Part shown: one piece after another, positions 4,620 to 10,620 of the stretch
How positions within the stretch are numbered: the first letter of the stretch is position 1
Layout: the number at the start of each line of letters is the position of its first letter
Source: an uncultured Spartobacteria bacterium
GTDB lineage: Bacteria; Verrucomicrobiota; Verrucomicrobiia; Chthoniobacterales; Chthoniobacteraceae
Assembly (NCBI GenBank): GCA_903929475.1
Contig: CAIYUV010000271.1
Coordinates: 1 to 39,349, forward strand
Reading direction: 5' to 3'
DNA: 39,349 bases
The notes under the pieces: generated by a model
Database searches by the model: none
What the model saw: only the letters and a program-made list of their open reading frames with translations
Told to the model about the DNA's origin: nothing
Made by a program: the position numbers and the translations under genes

Positions 4620-4928
4620 GCCAAAAACATACGCAACCGCAACGAGATTTGCGATCAACTCCACATCAGCCCCAAAGCACATCCGCTGGCCGAGGCCAGC
4701 TTGGAAGAAGGAATGCAACCCGCTACTTACCGGAAAATCCCTCAGATGTGGTCGGTTGAAAAGGATGGCTATCGAGCCTTCGCATGGATTCAGGGCCTCC
4801 GATGGACATCCTTTGAGCAACCGGCCTTTCGCCTCGTGCTTCTCCGCGCGATTGCCTGGACTGGCCGGAGATCGAATACCAATGAATTTTGTTCCGGAGG
4901 AGAGCTCCATACATTAACGAACCCATGA
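4620..4928 (+). pseudogene. ThuA-like domain remnant (C-terminal third)
   Basis: The frame is open from before 4620 to the TGA at 4926-4928. It reads NEICDQLHISPKAHPLAEASL, then a segment RAFAWIQGLRW followed by SFEQPAFRLVLLRAIAWTGRR. This matches the end of ThuA-like (glutamine amidotransferase-fold) proteins, where a strand of the type RAFVWMQGH is followed by a helix of the type LLRGIAWA. The N-terminal two thirds of the domain is absent, and no convincing start codon or SD precedes the conserved part; the first ATG is at 4701. The stop codon overlaps the start of the next PSD1 gene as ATGA (4925-4928), an arrangement of translationally coupled genes, so an intact ThuA gene probably once led this operon. 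A complete ThuA protein is encoded at 12184-13176. Confidence 0.5.
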
Positions 4929-7723
4929 TACAGGTCTCATCGCAACCAACTTCGATGACGGCTGGAATCGGCCTTTCTCTCACCGTGATACTTGCTTCAT
5001 GGTGCCATGCTACGACGCCAGGACAAATAGAGTTTTTTGAAAAAAACATCCGCCCGGTTCTTGTGGAACGCTGTTATGAATGCCACAGCGCCACCAGCAA
5101 GAAGCTCAAGGGAGGGCTCCGGCTCGATTCGAAGGCCGGATTTTTGCGCGGGGGCGAGACGGGGCCGGCGATTGTTCCCAGTCACGCGGAGAAAAGCCTG
5201 CTGATTGAATGCGTCGAGTATGGCAACCGTGACCTGCAAATGCCACCGAAGGAGCGTCTGCCTGATGCCATTATCGAAAACCTTAAAAAATGGGTGAACG
5301 ACGGTGCCGCCGACCCCCGCGATGAAGAGCCAAGCCTCAAACTGACTGGCGTGGATAACCAAGGCAAAGCGCACTGGGCATTTCAACCCATCCGTGACCC
5401 CGCGCTTCCCCCGCTGGACAATCCAATCACTCAAAAAACCAATCCCATTGACCAGTTCGTTGCCGCAAAGCTAAGGGAGCGCGGCCTGCATCCCTCGCCC
5501 GAGGCGGCAAGACGGATATTGATCCGCCGTGCAACCTACGACCTGACCGGCCTTCCCCCGACACCCGGGGAGATCGACGCATTTCTCAAGGACACCTCGA
5601 CCAATGCCTTCGAGCAGATGATTGATCGGCTGCTGGCCTCGCCACGCTATGGGGAACGATGGGGACGCTGGTGGCTCGATGTGGCCCGCTACGCCGACAC
5701 CAATGGGGTGGATGAAAACAAAGTCATGGCCAACGCCTGGCGCTACCGCGACTGGGTCATTCGCGCGATGAATAACAACAAGAGCTTCGATGATTTCATC
5801 ACGGAGCAACTTGCCGGGGACCTTCTGCCGACCGATGGATTAAGAGAGCAGGAGATCTTCGACCGATGGATCGCCACCGGCTTCCTGGTGCTCGGGCCGA
5901 AGCTTTTGGCGGAGCAGGACAAAACCAAGATGGCCATGGATATTGTGGATGAACAAATCGATGTCGTAAGCCGCGCCTTTTTGGGGCTAACGGTGACCTG
6001 CGCGCGCTGCCACGATCACAAGTTCGATCCAGTTTCCACGCGGGACTATTACGCGCTGGCGGGAATCTTTCGCAGCACCAAGACGATGGAGAACCTTGAT
6101 TTCGTCTCAAAGTTCAACGAGCGGCGGATCACCGACGCCGAACATCTTGCGGCGATTCACAGTCACGAAAAGCTGATGGAGGATAAAAACAGGGAAATCA
6201 AGGAAGCCATCAGCCGAGCGAATAAGGAATTGGCTGTGGAGTGGAGGGCGATGCTGCCAAACTGCCTCGCTCTTACAATATCCACGGAAAACCCTCCCGC
6301 TGACGATCCACTGTTGAACAAGCTGGTGGAAGGTTTGAGGAATTTGCTTAGCCAGGACAATGCCACCAATAACGTCAGCCGCACGCTGCGGCGGCTGGCG
6401 TCTGAACCCGACCTGCTGGCCGCTTTTCTCCAGAACGAAAAAAGCGGCCTTGAGGCTGCCAACGGCGTGTTACTTGCACCAGGTCGCATCGGTGCGGCCT
6501 TTCTAGCGGATGGCCACAACCACCTGGAGATGCCTTCCGCGCCAGAGCTGGAACCGCAGCAACTCACGATTGAAGCATGGGTGCGTGTGGGCGAATTGTC
6601 CAAGGACAAGGAGCAACGTTGCTGGATCGTGGGGAAGAATGGCGACGAGAACACGGCCGGACATTTTGCGCTGGCTCACGGGCGGGAACGCCTGGGGGCG
6701 CTGCTCAACATCGCCGGCGGAAAGGACAACCTTTTTGAAGTTTGGAGCAGGAAGATGGATCTGAGCACCGCGCAGTGGCATCATGTGGCGATGACTTTTG
6801 ACGGTTCGGTCATGAAGCTGTTCGTGGATGGTCAATTTGCGGACGCGACGGACGTTGGAAAGCAACGGACGGCAGGCAGCGGCCCACTTGTTCTGGGACA
6901 AAAGCCTGATGGGTCGGCGAGTTTCAAAGGATTGGTGGACGAAGTTCATCTTTACAAGCGCTCGCTCGGTGCGGATCAGCTAAAGGCGCATTTTACAAAT
7001 CCCGGGACAGCAGAGAATGAGGACGTGGTAGCGCGCTGGGAATTTAACGAACTTTCGGATACCCAAAGGGAGGGGTTGGCTTTGATCGAGACGTACGATG
7101 CGCTGTTCGCCCACGGGGGCTGTTTCCACCCGCCTGACGAACCGCGTCAGTATTATCCAAGCAGCACCAAAGAAGTCATTGTGGACTTGGAATCCGCTCG
7201 CGACGCGCTGGAAAAAACCAGGCCGGCCCCCGCGAGCTTTACCTTGGCGGTCGAAGAGAACAAAATTCGGGATCTGCCCGTGCATATCCGCGGCAACCAT
7301 TTGAACTTGGAGAAGGAAACGGTGCCGCGCGGCTTTGTCCAAGTGCTTTGCAGTAATGAAACTCCCAAAGTGGCCAAAGAGCAGAGTGGGCGACTGGAGC
7401 TGGCCCGTTGGCTGACCAGCCATGATCAACCGCTGACCGCCAGGGTCATCGTCAACCGGGTCTGGCAGGCGCATTTTGGCGAAGGAATTGTCCGGACACC
7501 CGACAACTTCGGTGTGCGCGGCGAAACTCCGAGCCATCCGGAATTGTTGGACTGGCTCGCTTCCGAATTCATGCGCTCCGGGTGGAACCTCAAGCAACTC
7601 CATCGTTTGATCATGACCAGCGCGGCCTGGCGGCAGGCAGGTCGTGGGACCTTCGGTGACTGTAAACGCGAAACTGGCGTTTGTTTCACGGGTGCCCGTT
7701 TGCGGCATTCCGGGGCGTTGTGA
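4925..7723 (+). CDS. PSD1/planctomycete cytochrome C/LamG protein, C-terminally truncated
   Basis: An exported 932-residue protein. ATG 4925 is preferred over 4889 because it overlaps the upstream stop (ATGA) and leaves a good signal, GIGLSLTVILASWCHA. Domains in order: PSCyt1 with CYECH at 50-54; DUF1549 with TYDLTGLPPTPGEID, LLASPRYGERWGRWWLD and CARCH at 359-363; a LamG/concanavalin-like insert at about 515-690 (TIEAWVRVGEL, WHHVAMTFDG, LVDEVHLYKRSLG); then the first part of DUF1553/PSD1 (RGNHLNLEKETVPRGF, LTARVIVNRVWQAHFGEGIV, HPELLDWLASEF). Homology stops after LIMTSAAWRQA (about residue 905). The last 27 residues are unlike the family, and the final roughly 200 residues of PSD1, present in the paralogue at 1259-4228, are missing. 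The break at about 7635-7645 coincides with the left edge of the AT-richer accessory patch, so I read it as a rearrangement junction and the product as possibly non-functional. Confidence 0.85.
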   Translation: MIQVSSQPTSMTAGIGLSLTVILASWCHATTPGQIEFFEKNIRPVLVERCYECHSATSKKLKGGLRLDSKAGFLRGGETGPAIVPSHAEKSLLIECVEYGNRDLQMPPKERLPDAIIENLKKWVNDGAADPRDEEPSLKLTGVDNQGKAHWAFQPIRDPALPPLDNPITQKTNPIDQFVAAKLRERGLHPSPEAARRILIRRATYDLTGLPPTPGEIDAFLKDTSTNAFEQMIDRLLASPRYGERWGRWWLDVARYADTNGVDENKVMANAWRYRDWVIRAMNNNKSFDDFITEQLAGDLLPTDGLREQEIFDRWIATGFLVLGPKLLAEQDKTKMAMDIVDEQIDVVSRAFLGLTVTCARCHDHKFDPVSTRDYYALAGIFRSTKTMENLDFVSKFNERRITDAEHLAAIHSHEKLMEDKNREIKEAISRANKELAVEWRAMLPNCLALTISTENPPADDPLLNKLVEGLRNLLSQDNATNNVSRTLRRLASEPDLLAAFLQNEKSGLEAANGVLLAPGRIGAAFLADGHNHLEMPSAPELEPQQLTIEAWVRVGELSKDKEQRCWIVGKNGDENTAGHFALAHGRERLGALLNIAGGKDNLFEVWSRKMDLSTAQWHHVAMTFDGSVMKLFVDGQFADATDVGKQRTAGSGPLVLGQKPDGSASFKGLVDEVHLYKRSLGADQLKAHFTNPGTAENEDVVARWEFNELSDTQREGLALIETYDALFAHGGCFHPPDEPRQYYPSSTKEVIVDLESARDALEKTRPAPASFTLAVEENKIRDLPVHIRGNHLNLEKETVPRGFVQVLCSNETPKVAKEQSGRLELARWLTSHDQPLTARVIVNRVWQAHFGEGIVRTPDNFGVRGETPSHPELLDWLASEFMRSGWNLKQLHRLIMTSAAWRQAGRGTFGDCKRETGVCFTGARLRHSGAL

Positions 7724-7910: not shown

Positions 7911-8837
7911 TCAAGCTACCGCTGCACTTCCGCAATTTCGCTCCCAGACCGCACGAATTTCCTCGGCAACAGCTTGATAAAGGCCGTTGTCCTGATTCGG
8001 ATCGAGCCAGCCCCACTGGCCGTTCGGGTTCACTTCCAGAAACCATAACCGCCCGCCAACCCGGAGAAAATCAAAACGCCCAAACTCCAAACCCATCTCC
8101 TTCATCATCGCACGAATCCCGACCGCGTCATCTTGAGTCAATTCGCATGGTGGCCAGATCGCTTCATTTATTACCGTCGCAAGACGTGAGTCCACGCCAT
8201 CGAAATCACGTAGCAGTTCGTAGGCAAACAGACGGCCATTCACGAACACAACCGTAACGTCATGCGTCGCAGGAGATTTTTCTTGGACGAACCAGGGAAA
8301 CTCAGCAGAGAGGCATCCTGCATCAACTTCTTTGACGAGCAAATGCGCACCGCTCCCAACTGGCGTCGCAGCGAAACTCTTTACCACCGTGCCAGCACTA
8401 AATCCCCTTGGGTTTACCTCGTGAAAAGCCTTCCACTCGGGAACCGGGAACCAACGCTTCGCCAGCCGCATCTGGCGAACCTTGCTGGCGAATCGCGCTG
8501 GCTTTACGAGGGCAAGCTTCCCCGATGCATAGGCCAGATCCCGAATGCCGTTGAAAAGCTGAACCAGTTCCTCACGACGCCATGCTTCTTCACTGCCGCC
8601 CGCTGGGATATCAATGTAAACGGGATCGAAGAAGAGCTTCCTCAGATAGACTGCATAGGTGCCGTTCTCCTCGCATACGCGGCCTGTCGGATCTTGGATT
8701 CTGAAGCTGTCACCACCGACCTCCCATCGGTAGTGCTTCCATAGATCGATGTTGAAACGAAATAGCGGAATGCCATGCAGCTTAGAAAGCAGATCGCTGG
8801 AGGTATGATCTCCGCTGTGAGTCAGAACAAGCAGCAT
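7911..8837 (-). CDS. MvdC/MvdD-like ATP-grasp peptide ligase (graspetide macrocyclase candidate)
   Basis: A 308-residue cytoplasmic enzyme. The N-terminal pre-ATP-grasp domain begins MLLVLTHSGDHTSSDLL and continues HGIPLFRFNIDLW, as in microviridin maturases. Middle blocks are KPARFASKVRQMRLAKRWF, VVKSF and LLVKEVDAG. The ATP-grasp core has WFVQEKSPATHDVTVVFVNG, then FAYELLRD, MGLEFGRFDFL and the Mg/ATP-binding FLEVNPNGQWGWLD. The last motif matches the EVNPNGQW signature of the MvdC/MvdD/RimK-like ribosomal-peptide maturase group, which makes side-chain ester or amide links between Thr/Ser/Lys and Asp/Glu. The length fits (usually 300-340). The gene lies 62 bases downstream of the 71-residue peptide gene on the same strand, with a hairpin between and no good SD of its own. 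No acetyltransferase, protease or ABC transporter adjoins it. The family assignment is strong; the substrate is inferred. Confidence 0.88.
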   Translation of the reverse strand: MLLVLTHSGDHTSSDLLSKLHGIPLFRFNIDLWKHYRWEVGGDSFRIQDPTGRVCEENGTYAVYLRKLFFDPVYIDIPAGGSEEAWRREELVQLFNGIRDLAYASGKLALVKPARFASKVRQMRLAKRWFPVPEWKAFHEVNPRGFSAGTVVKSFAATPVGSGAHLLVKEVDAGCLSAEFPWFVQEKSPATHDVTVVFVNGRLFAYELLRDFDGVDSRLATVINEAIWPPCELTQDDAVGIRAMMKEMGLEFGRFDFLRVGGRLWFLEVNPNGQWGWLDPNQDNGLYQAVAEEIRAVWERNCGSAAVA

Positions 8838-8845
8838 GGAAGAGA

Positions 8846-8868
8846 GCCGGGGGAAGGTTTCCCCCGGC
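8846..8868 (-). promoter_or_regulatory. Intercistronic hairpin between peptide gene and ATP-grasp gene
   Basis: A perfect 10-bp inverted repeat, 8846-8855 with 8859-8868, has a 3-base loop. It lies between the stop of the peptide gene (8900) and the ATG of the ligase (8837), ending only 8 bases before that ATG. No T-run follows on the minus strand, so it does not look like a full intrinsic terminator. In RiPP operons such stems often protect or attenuate the message so that precursor is made in excess of enzyme. The stem could also restrict ribosome access to the ligase start, which lacks a clear SD. The structure is seen in the sequence; its function is inferred. Confidence 0.6.
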
Positions 8869-8899
8869 GAAGTTGATTTGGCGCGGACGATTCGTTCTT

Positions 8900-9115
8900 C
8901 TAGTCGCTATTCCAGTCGTCGATCGCATTAAAGGAGTAGGTGGCAGTGAAAGTTGACATCATAACTTTCGGATCTCCGGCCTTCTGGCTGCCTTCAACTT
9001 GCGTGGTCTGGGTTTGCCAGTCGTAGGCGGACTTCTGAACGTGCGCTGCATTGGATAGCGGCGGGGTTGCCAAGGCAGATGGGGTGAGGGCGAGTAACGC
9101 CAAGGTTGTGATCAT
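8900..9115 (-). CDS. Candidate graspetide precursor peptide with secretion-like leader
   Basis: A 71-residue peptide gene. The start at 9115 is well supported by AGGAGG eight bases upstream. The N-terminus MITTLALLALTPSALA is hydrophobic and ends in an ALA signal-peptidase-like site, although it has no positive charge at the start. A polar central segment follows (about 25-50). The C-terminus, STFTATYSFNAIDDWNSD (residues 54-71), offers hydroxyl donors at S54, T55, T57, T59 and S61 in an every-second-residue pattern, and acidic acceptors at D66, D67 and D71. That is the composition expected of an ATP-grasp macrocyclised core (Thr/Ser to Asp esters). It immediately precedes the ATP-grasp gene. 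It is not the microviridin TxKxPSDxE core nor a plesiocin-like TTxxxxEE repeat. Alternatives are an unmodified secreted peptide or a leader that only resembles a signal. The gene is very probably real; precursor function is an inference. Confidence 0.72.
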   Translation of the reverse strand: MITTLALLALTPSALATPPLSNAAHVQKSAYDWQTQTTQVEGSQKAGDPKVMMSTFTATYSFNAIDDWNSD

Positions 9116-9123
9116 GTTTGTTT

Positions 9124-9129
9124 CCTCCT
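9124..9129 (-). promoter_or_regulatory. Strong Shine-Dalgarno site of the precursor gene
   Basis: AGGAGG on the minus strand, eight bases before the ATG at 9115. It is a full match to the anti-SD core, much stronger than anything before the ATP-grasp gene, and it fixes the start of the peptide gene. It suggests high translation of the peptide relative to the enzyme. Confidence 0.85.
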
Positions 9130-9154
9130 GATTATTTTGTTGGTTTTGCGGCAG

Positions 9155-9179
9155 AGCGGAATGCTCCGCTTTCGGAGCA
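9155..9179. promoter_or_regulatory. Overlapping palindromes in the divergent peptide/XRE spacer
   Basis: Two perfect inverted repeats share bases. AGCGGA at 9155-9160 pairs with TCCGCT at 9165-9170 (4-base spacer). TGCTCCG at 9162-9168 pairs with CGGAGCA at 9173-9179 (4-base spacer). The two stems are mutually exclusive as RNA hairpins. They sit 26-50 bases upstream of the SD of the peptide gene, in the 112-base spacer between it and the divergent XRE regulator, so they could be an operator for that regulator or a 5' UTR switch. I see no convincing sigma70 promoter; a TTGACC at 9204-9209 on the minus strand lacks a good -10 partner. Confidence 0.45.
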
Positions 9180-9227
9180 CTTTCTCGCGCCGTGGCATGT
9201 AACGGTCAAGCTCCAATTTCGGAACAA

Positions 9228-9506
9228 ATGCCACAACAGAACATCATCGGTCCGCAAGTCCGCCGACTGCGGGTTGAGGAAGGTATCTCCCAAGACGCTC
9301 TGGCCGCGAAGTGTCAGCGCATCGGATGGGCGCTCGCACGCGGGACGCTGGCCAAGATCGAAGCGCGGGTGCGTCTGGTGAACGATGCCGAGGTTCTGCT
9401 TCTGTCGGTTGCGCTGGGAGTGACTCCGGAAAAGCTTTTTCCAGACTCAAAGCGCGGAAAGATCAGCAGGCAGGCAATTGACGCGGCCAGACACAGCAGC
9501 GACTGA
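9228..9506 (+). CDS. XRE-family helix-turn-helix regulator
   Basis: A 92-residue protein with start MPQQNIIGPQVRRLRVEEG. An upstream in-frame ATG at 9192 would add 12 unconserved residues. Residues 6-65 form a Cro/C1-type HTH: QVRRLRVEEGISQDALAAKC, then GTLAKIEARVRLVND and LLLSVALGVTPEKLFPD. The sequence around the second helix has an insertion (QRIGWALAR), which I recall from a subgroup of small XRE proteins that begin NIIGPQVR. It is transcribed away from the precursor/ATP-grasp pair, and the shared 112-base spacer contains overlapping palindromes. A role as local regulator of the peptide system is plausible but not shown. There is no C-terminal sensing domain. A 9-bp inverted repeat lies about 115 bases downstream. 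Confidence 0.85.
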   Translation: MPQQNIIGPQVRRLRVEEGISQDALAAKCQRIGWALARGTLAKIEARVRLVNDAEVLLLSVALGVTPEKLFPDSKRGKISRQAIDAARHSSD

Positions 9507-9808
9507 TTCATCGACGGGGCTTCTCAACACCGCACACAATTTTCCACCCAGTTACGCATCTGCGTAAAAAATTTCTTTGGTATGCCAGCAGTTAAAAGCT
9601 ACCAACTTTGCAAATCGAAACTGAAACCCACAGGAAAAGCGGGTTTCAGCAGCAAAGCGACACTCTAGCTTTTCATCGCCGCAATTGCTAGGTTCCGTGC
9701 CGGAACGTCTCTTGCCGCATGGTCGCTCCGGCCATTTCGTAATCGATGATTCGAAAATCAAATTCTCGGCGCTCTTCACATCACGTCACAAACTGCACGG
9801 CACCACGA
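9507..9808. other. Gene-free spacer, AT-richer, with inverted repeats
   Basis: No credible coding sequence. It contains a perfect 9-bp inverted repeat, CTGAAACCC at 9621-9629 with GGGTTTCAG at 9641-9649 (11-base loop), and a 6-bp palindrome at 9692-9706. The first could be a terminator-like stem for the XRE gene, but it lacks a T-run. I counted 24 G/C in the 60 bases 9541-9600, well below most of the window. Confidence 0.5.
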
Positions 9809-9991
9809 ATGATCGACTTCATCTTCAGCCAATGCGTGGCTCTCCTCGAATGGGCCGCCCGCAAACTCGGCACGACCTACAACGCGATCAATGTCTGGAT
9901 ATTCTGCGTCATCTGGCCGGCCATCACGATCGGGTTGATCATTGCGGTGATCGTCCTGTGGAGAAAAGTCACCGTGCTTCAGCATCCGTGA
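9809..9991 (+). CDS. Small conserved membrane protein
   Basis: A 60-residue protein. The start at 9809 is chosen because the conserved part begins there (MIDFIFSQCVALLEWAARK); the frame extends upstream to an ATG at 9746 with an unlikely Ser/Arg-rich lead. One or two hydrophobic segments are visible: a weak amphipathic N-terminal helix and a strong transmembrane helix, IFCVIWPAITIGLIIAVIVL (about 31-50), ending in a basic WRK. The phrase TTYNAINVWIFCVIWP recalls a family of tiny membrane proteins in Bacteroidetes and PVC bacteria that carry NVWIFCVIWP; their function is unknown to me. There is no neighbour on the same strand within 300 bases upstream. Its frame stays open for 29 codons after the TGA, which I treat as chance. 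Confidence 0.6.
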   Translation: MIDFIFSQCVALLEWAARKLGTTYNAINVWIFCVIWPAITIGLIIAVIVLWRKVTVLQHP

Positions 9992-10101
9992 TTCTCGAAG
10001 CACGTTCTTCACATCATCGAAGACGACGCCGTGCTCACGATTCACGATGCGCATGGCAGCCATCGATTCAGCAGTGACTGACGTTTCGGTTCCGTGACCT
10101 C

Positions 10102-10402: not shown

Positions 10403-10522
10403 CACGCCGTTTCTCGCACCCCTCTGCAAAACTGGCGAAACTTCAAAAAACGCCGTTTTTACGAGGTAAACCTGATCAGCAAAGACACGCCTAGAAACGT
10501 CATGAAAGTGTCAAAATCACAA

Positions 10523-10559
10523 TTCAGAATCTGCTGTGCTACCATTACACCATGAGGCA
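10523..10559 (-). pseudogene. 5' half of tRNA-Gln(CUG), truncated after the anticodon loop
   Basis: On the minus strand from 10559 the sequence has an acceptor strand TGCCTCA, a D-arm GTGTAATGGTAGCAC, a 5' anticodon stem GCAGA and a loop TTCTGAA with anticodon CUG. This is the usual plan of bacterial tRNA-Gln. After one more T the sequence departs: the 3' anticodon stem, T-arm (no GGTTCGA) and matching acceptor strand are missing. It cannot fold as a tRNA. tRNA halves of this kind are left by integration or excision of elements in the tRNA gene, or by rearrangement. It marks the right edge of the accessory patch. Confidence 0.65.
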
Positions 10560-10620
10560 GTGCGGAGGGGGCGGAAAGTAGGCGCGGGGCGGGGGAGGTA
10601 AAGGAGATTTTCGTTGCGCG

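Follow-up and report, generated by a model that had tools for sequence, protein, structure and literature searches.

Graspetides are ribosomal peptides whose side chains are linked by ATP-grasp ligases, and the surveyed graspetide groups share this enzyme class and its pairing with a precursor gene (PMC8939145 and PMC13097080; 43 groups). Microviridins (MdnA with MdnB/MdnC; MvdC/MvdD) are made with two ligases and an acetyltransferase from a precursor whose core carries TxKxPSDWEE. In fuscimiditide, a stem-loop graspetide (ThfA/ThfB), a loop is enclosed by two nested Thr-Asp esters; the ligase is permissive toward loop length and nucleophile, but strict about the acids (PMC12291112). Plesiocin (PsnA/PsnB) is built on a TTxxxxEE core. 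Other precursors that have been described conserve a single Thr/Ser and a single Asp/Glu, and a leader motif, Phhx(1,2)h, occurs in about half of graspetide precursors (PMC8939145).

Here, we analyzed a 39,349-nucleotide stretch from an uncultured Spartobacteria bacterium (contig CAIYUV010000271.1; hereafter, the window), which contains a small locus resembling each of these systems in part. As in microviridin loci, adjacent genes encode a homologous ATP-grasp ligase, whose closest structure is MdnC, and a peptide that begins with a leader and has Ser/Thr and Asp/Glu residues toward its C-terminus. Unlike those loci, it has one ligase rather than two and no acetyltransferase, its core (TATYSFNAIDDWNSD) holds no TxKxPSDWEE-type sequence, and no lactam is expected, as the aligned peptide cores of the clade have no conserved Lys. 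Like fuscimiditide, the peptide presents two Thr/Ser and two Asp residues placed for nested esters enclosing a length-tolerant loop (PMC12291112). However, the clade's nucleophiles lie at i and i+2 and its acids at j and j+1, whereas those of fuscimiditide lie at i and i+4 and at j and j+4; moreover, no PIMT methyltransferase gene was seen beside the window locus, and its relatives allow Cys as the second nucleophile. With plesiocin, it shares two neighboring nucleophiles and a pair of adjacent acids, separated in the window peptide by a four-residue loop, yet the clade's acids are Asp rather than Glu, its nucleophiles are spaced by one extra residue, and it has a single repeat and loops of 4-13 residues in the relatives, giving [ST]x[STC]..DD in place of TTxxxxEE. 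Sequence, structure-model and comparative evidence together support a graspetide-type system, with a chemistry that is predicted.

Layout of the locus

The ligase, peptide and XRE-type genes described in an initial annotation of this DNA were all found where it had placed them, as was the Shine-Dalgarno sequence of the precursor gene. The features are:

7911-8837, minus strand: ATP-grasp graspetide-type ligase gene, 308 aa (ORF with EVNPNGQWGW; NCBIfam, PDB profile and AlphaFold (AF2) model)
8846-8868, minus strand: intergenic hairpin with a 10-bp stem, GCCGGGGGAA-ACC-TTCCCCCGGC, between the precursor stop and the ligase start (z -2.5)
8900-9115, minus strand: putative precursor peptide gene, 71 aa (ORF, homologues, alignment, profile search)
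8915-8941, minus strand: predicted core ring motif T59-Y-S61-FNAI-D66-D67 (alignment columns 81, 83, 97, 98)
9008-9025, minus strand: second conserved leader motif, Y[ND]WxxQ (residues 31-36, YDWQTQ), also in L001, L130-L134, L152 and L153
9068-9115, minus strand: precursor residues 1-16, a hydrophobic N-terminal extension plus the leader motif TPSALA with the invariant Pro12 (alignment, column table, hydropathy)
9124-9129, minus strand: Shine-Dalgarno AGGAGG of the precursor gene, 8 nt before its ATG (sequence)
9155-9179, no strand: two overlapping short inverted repeats (AGCGGA/TCCGCT, TGCTCCG/CGGAGCA), a candidate operator
9228-9506, plus strand: divergent XRE-type HTH gene (HTH_3 E 7.5e-7; start ATG 9228, GTG 9192 possible)

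The ligase belongs to a distinct verrucomicrobial clade

Against NCBIfam, the window ligase matched TIGR04185 (MvdC) with an E value of 2e-19 and TIGR04187 (SAV_5884) with 5e-19, while staying under the curated cut-off of every maturase model there (69.7 bits vs 425 for TIGR04185, 30.2 vs 475 for TIGR04184 and 68.7 vs 350 for TIGR04187). All 29 aligned ligases matched each of four NCBIfam peptide-maturase models. RimK-type models matched only a few of these ligases and not the window protein, whose own Pfam and NCBIfam matches included neither RimK nor GSH families. Searching the PDB with phmmer (E up to 1) returned five matches, 5ig8 (MdnB), 7m4s (AMdnB), 9bou (PruB), 5ig9 (MdnC) and 7mgv (CdnC). 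A profile of 29 relatives found the same five (AMdnB 4e-43, MdnB 4e-41, CdnC 3.5e-40, MdnC 3.5e-34, PruB 2e-32), followed by the plesiocin ligase PsnB (7drm; 9e-7), the most remote of the graspetide synthetases in this search, and RimK (0.16). The AF2 model (mean pLDDT 88.1, pTM 0.87) was closest to MdnC with its peptide (5ig9; VIA-align Z 26.0, rmsd 2.7 over 276 residues) and next to PruB, AMdnB, CdnC, PsnB and MdnB (Z 22.5-24.1). Residues K153, D256, E268 and N270, together with a DxR pair (D216/R218), are invariant or nearly so among the aligned relatives.

That the enzyme sides with the peptide maturases rather than with RimK or glutathione synthase thus emerges from NCBIfam, PDB profiles and structure comparison alike. 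It could still be imagined to add an amino acid or another amine to the peptide by RimK-, LysX- or PGM1-like ligation, with no cyclisation, as its fold is common to RimK and LysX (Z 18.9 and 18.0). This is very improbable given the RimK E value of 0.16 vs about 1e-43 for the macrocyclases, the lack of any PF08443 (RimK) match in the genome at E 0.001, and the co-conservation of nucleophiles and acids inside the peptide. The initial annotation had called the ligase MvdC/MvdD-type; its maturase branch is borne out, but, at 69.7 and 30.2 bits, it does not qualify as an equivalog of either MvdC or MvdD. Rather, it is part of a separate verrucomicrobial clade with its own core motif, and is not a microviridin, SAV_5884 or plesiocin member.

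In the ligase tree, this clade was separated from actinobacterial, betaproteobacterial and other verrucomicrobial ligases with a support of 100/100. A single-sequence search of a phylum sample gave matches in 16 of 387 genomes, and full-length members numbered 7 in 384 sampled genomes of the class and 16 in 288 of a second class. Named genomes supplied two further members, L001 from an Opitutus MAG (60% identity) and L002 from an uncultured Verrucomicrobiota bin (43%). The distribution is patchy, since the ligase was found in no other searched genome of its own genus or family. Neither the core motif nor the clade has a match in the main texts of the graspetide papers examined. Likewise, the main texts of PMC8939145 (Makarova 2022) and PMC13097080 (Carter 2026), whose group consensus tables stand in the supplements, name no verrucomicrobial member, and it is possible that the clade is identical with a recently surveyed group, e.g., one in PMC13097080. 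The locus would extend graspetides to Verrucomicrobiota, where the main texts examined place none.

One genome with an intact locus also holds a C-terminal remnant of a second ligase copy (G051:C17:22684-22779). In the 0-650 bases upstream of a distant verrucomicrobial ATP-grasp gene (L154, G039:C78), GTx[TS]xT..E..DSD-like units recur in two ORFs, which may encode a multi-repeat graspetide of a different type.

A conserved peptide accompanies the ligase

The initial annotation had paired the ligase with the small peptide, and the pairing proved general: a small ORF lies directly upstream of the ligase in all 27 clade members (Verrucomicrobiota), and a peptide profile found it in 14/14 ligase-bearing genomes and in 0/8 ligase-less relatives, with every best match at the ligase. 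The peptide ORF is not a chance occurrence, because homologues with the invariant leader Pro and Asp-Asp sit likewise beside every close ligase relative. Pfam, PADLOC and Rfam contained no named family for either the peptide or the intergenic hairpin. As for second, orphan precursors, the profile search of the genomes gave only weak leftovers; a leader-like match away from the ligase locus (G586:C72:1037-1114, E 0.007) is possibly an orphan or decayed precursor.

Asp-Asp stands near the C-terminus of 26/27 upstream peptides, the outlier being the most divergent member, L153, with QDTD (D-T-D), and 26/27 cores share [ST]-x-[STC]-loop(4-13)-Asp-Asp. When 24 non-redundant peptides were aligned with MAFFT, P12, D66 and D67 were invariant. 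Read without tuning, column 81 (position i) held Thr in 18 and Ser in 6 peptides, and column 83 (position i+2) held Ser in 10, Cys in 8 and Thr in 6. The pattern [ST]x[STC]x(4,13)DD occurred in 24/24 of these peptides, vs a mean of 10.3 and a maximum of 18 among 2000 shuffles in which the 20 residues preceding DD were randomised.

RiPP precursors typically keep their leader while diversifying the core, except for its anchors. Three loci of one genus (L130, L131 and L132) allowed leader and core to be compared under near-identical enzymes: their ligases are 95-98% identical (dN 0.007-0.03) and their leaders (first 49 residues) 84-94% identical (pN 0.03-0.07), whereas their cores, TGSFSRIPFGNGAQAVDDWHLA, VSASFCNHGSGTMIDDWHLA and GVYFTYTMAGQGQQRMDDANLA, have been exchanged (pN about 0.45). 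With the leader kept and the core swapped apart from the anchors, these peptides behave as RiPP precursors. The leader pattern is P-x-x-[ILVA]-A with an invariant Pro; the full Phhx(1,2)h motif fits L130-L134 (PFVAA, PLMMA, PFMVA), and the window's PSALA fits it only partly.

Predicted ring chemistry

We consider it highly likely that the window holds a minimal graspetide-kind RiPP locus, in which the ligase would phosphorylate D66 and D67 and form two nested side-chain esters with S61 and T59 (-36 Da). The 71-aa precursor would bind the ligase through its N-terminal part, by the TPSALA region and perhaps the YDWQTQ motif. Once the side chains of D66 and D67 were phosphorylated, their joining to S61 and T59 with the loss of two H2O would yield two nested omega-ester rings in a stem-loop form, with FNAI as the loop. 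In the pairing we infer, T59-D67 would close the outer ring and S61-D66 the inner. Two nested side-chain esters are predicted because hydroxyl or thiol side chains occupy i and i+2, Asp occupies both j and j+1, and no Lys is conserved, the last being the reason to expect esters rather than amides. The fixed pairs of anchors around a loop varying from 4 to 13 residues would offer a natural scaffold series for loop engineering.

The same residues could be read as a single ring, in which the sole link runs from the [ST] at position i to one Asp, with i+2 and the second Asp serving recognition. The pairing is unreadable from sequence and L153 has DxD, both of which leave room for this reading; nevertheless, position i+2 is only ever S, C or T in the 24 non-redundant peptides, a better fit for a nucleophile than for a recognition residue, and we judge a single ring unlikely.

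Compatible with the two nested rings, but adding a second type of bond, is the tentative proposal that the clade makes mixed ester/thioester stem-loop graspetides, in which Ser, Thr and Cys serve interchangeably as the inner nucleophile and, where it is Cys, the native ring is closed by a side-chain thioester between Cys and Asp. Cys occupies i+2 in 8/24 non-redundant peptides, and in L131, L137, L138 and L148 it is the sole Cys, making an intramolecular disulfide impossible there. The ligases of L130 (Ser) and L131 (Cys) are 98.3% identical, and no gene family specific to the Cys members was seen among the neighboring genes. In addition, ester-forming synthetases take substituted nucleophiles and yield thioesters (PMC12291112, PMC13097080), though in the literature examined, side-chain thioesters made by graspetide synthetases appear only on substituted substrates. 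Against this, the bond is labile, the Cys may stay free, make intermolecular disulfides or aid recognition, and the window peptide itself has Ser, not Cys. The sole Cys, the near-identical L130 and L131 ligases and the lack of a Cys-specific neighbor family make native thioesters possible, albeit unproven, and we lean toward doubting them. Because closely related enzymes meet Ser, Thr or Cys at one and the same site of their peptides, such rings are directly testable; if real, the ring bond of the Cys members would be one not yet described as natural among graspetides in the literature examined.

A hairpin separates the precursor and ligase genes

Between the precursor stop and the ligase ATG, a strong stem-loop was found in 26/26 loci, its sequence differing from locus to locus, within gaps of 51-83 nt (185 in one locus). 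The hairpin z scores were mostly -3 to -6.6, with higher values in the window (-2.5), L146 (-2.8) and L144 (-1.7). In some loci (L001, L002, L130-L132), a T run follows the hairpin, resembling a leaky terminator, while others have none. RiPP operons show analogous intergenic arrangements that favor precursor over enzyme. By this analogy, the hairpin would hold ligase expression below precursor expression, its likely role being to provide more precursor than enzyme.

Two locus architectures differ in export features

Two architectures exist in the clade, one with an ABC exporter and one, that of the window, with no exporter and a hydrophobic N-terminal extension of the precursor. In L137-L152, an ABC exporter gene lies beside the precursor or directly after the ligase, and in L153 the contig ends within an ABC exporter gene. 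The exporters of three loci, 555-566 aa long, contained PF00664 and PF00005, and Pfam gave no C39 match in any of the three. In the exporter-less loci (window, L001, L002, L130-L135), the extension has a 16-residue GRAVY of 1.4-2.0, vs -0.4 to 0.6 in the rest. Altogether, the extension is present in nine loci with no neighboring ABC exporter and in none with one, and L136, on a short contig, has neither. On the ligase tree, the two traits require only 1-3 changes, so the pattern represents few independent events. A switch of export route between extension and exporter would fit these data, but the pattern closely tracks the tree and L136 belongs to neither type.

The initial annotation had described a minimal system with no acetyltransferase, protease or ABC exporter. 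Indeed, neither an acetyltransferase, a dedicated protease nor an ABC exporter adjoins the window locus, but relatives in other families do carry the exporter. Its "secreted-looking" peptide is a more uncertain matter: the N-terminus is hydrophobic, but it overlaps the conserved leader motif and has no Lys or Arg in its n-region. No cleavage site, protease or exporter for the window peptide was identified at the locus. The locus probably serves to make a bioactive peptide that is excreted and whose loop is diversified.

Regulation and flanking genes

The XRE gene predicted by the initial annotation is real (of its two possible starts, ATG 9228 is more plausible than GTG 9192), but its link to the locus is weak. 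The divergent position recurs only in L001, and the two XRE proteins have no detectable similarity to one another; we thus rejected the XRE as a conserved partner. The two overlapping inverted repeats lie within the intergenic region shared by the precursor and XRE genes. Since the XRE is divergent and weakly similar to restriction-modification control proteins, it could be thought to form a toxin-antitoxin or regulatory pair with the small peptide, beside an unrelated ligase. Its absence or dissimilarity at the other loci and the constant company of peptide and ligase make this scarcely credible.

In relatives from several families (L002, L135-L138, L140, L142-L148 and L150-L153), the locus is flanked by a Hanks-type Ser/Thr kinase, which in most cases is accompanied by a sigma-70 region 2 protein. 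Genome G627 has just two PF00069 matches, each lying no more than about 5 kb from the ligase, making a chance association unlikely; the window locus has no kinase.

On the left, the neighboring PSCyt1/PSCyt2/PSD1 gene (4889-7723) is cut off at about 7642, where its homology to its window paralogue ends, and its PSD1 domain covers 86/244 positions. On the right, from 10529 on, the window is colinear (88%) with a congener lacking such a locus. The two breakpoints flanking the locus are consistent with horizontal gain or rearrangement. At the right breakpoint, a 43-bp sequence (10522-10565) is repeated perfectly at other places in the genome (C266, C252 and C63), and positions 9759-10000 have 91-96% copies in congeners.
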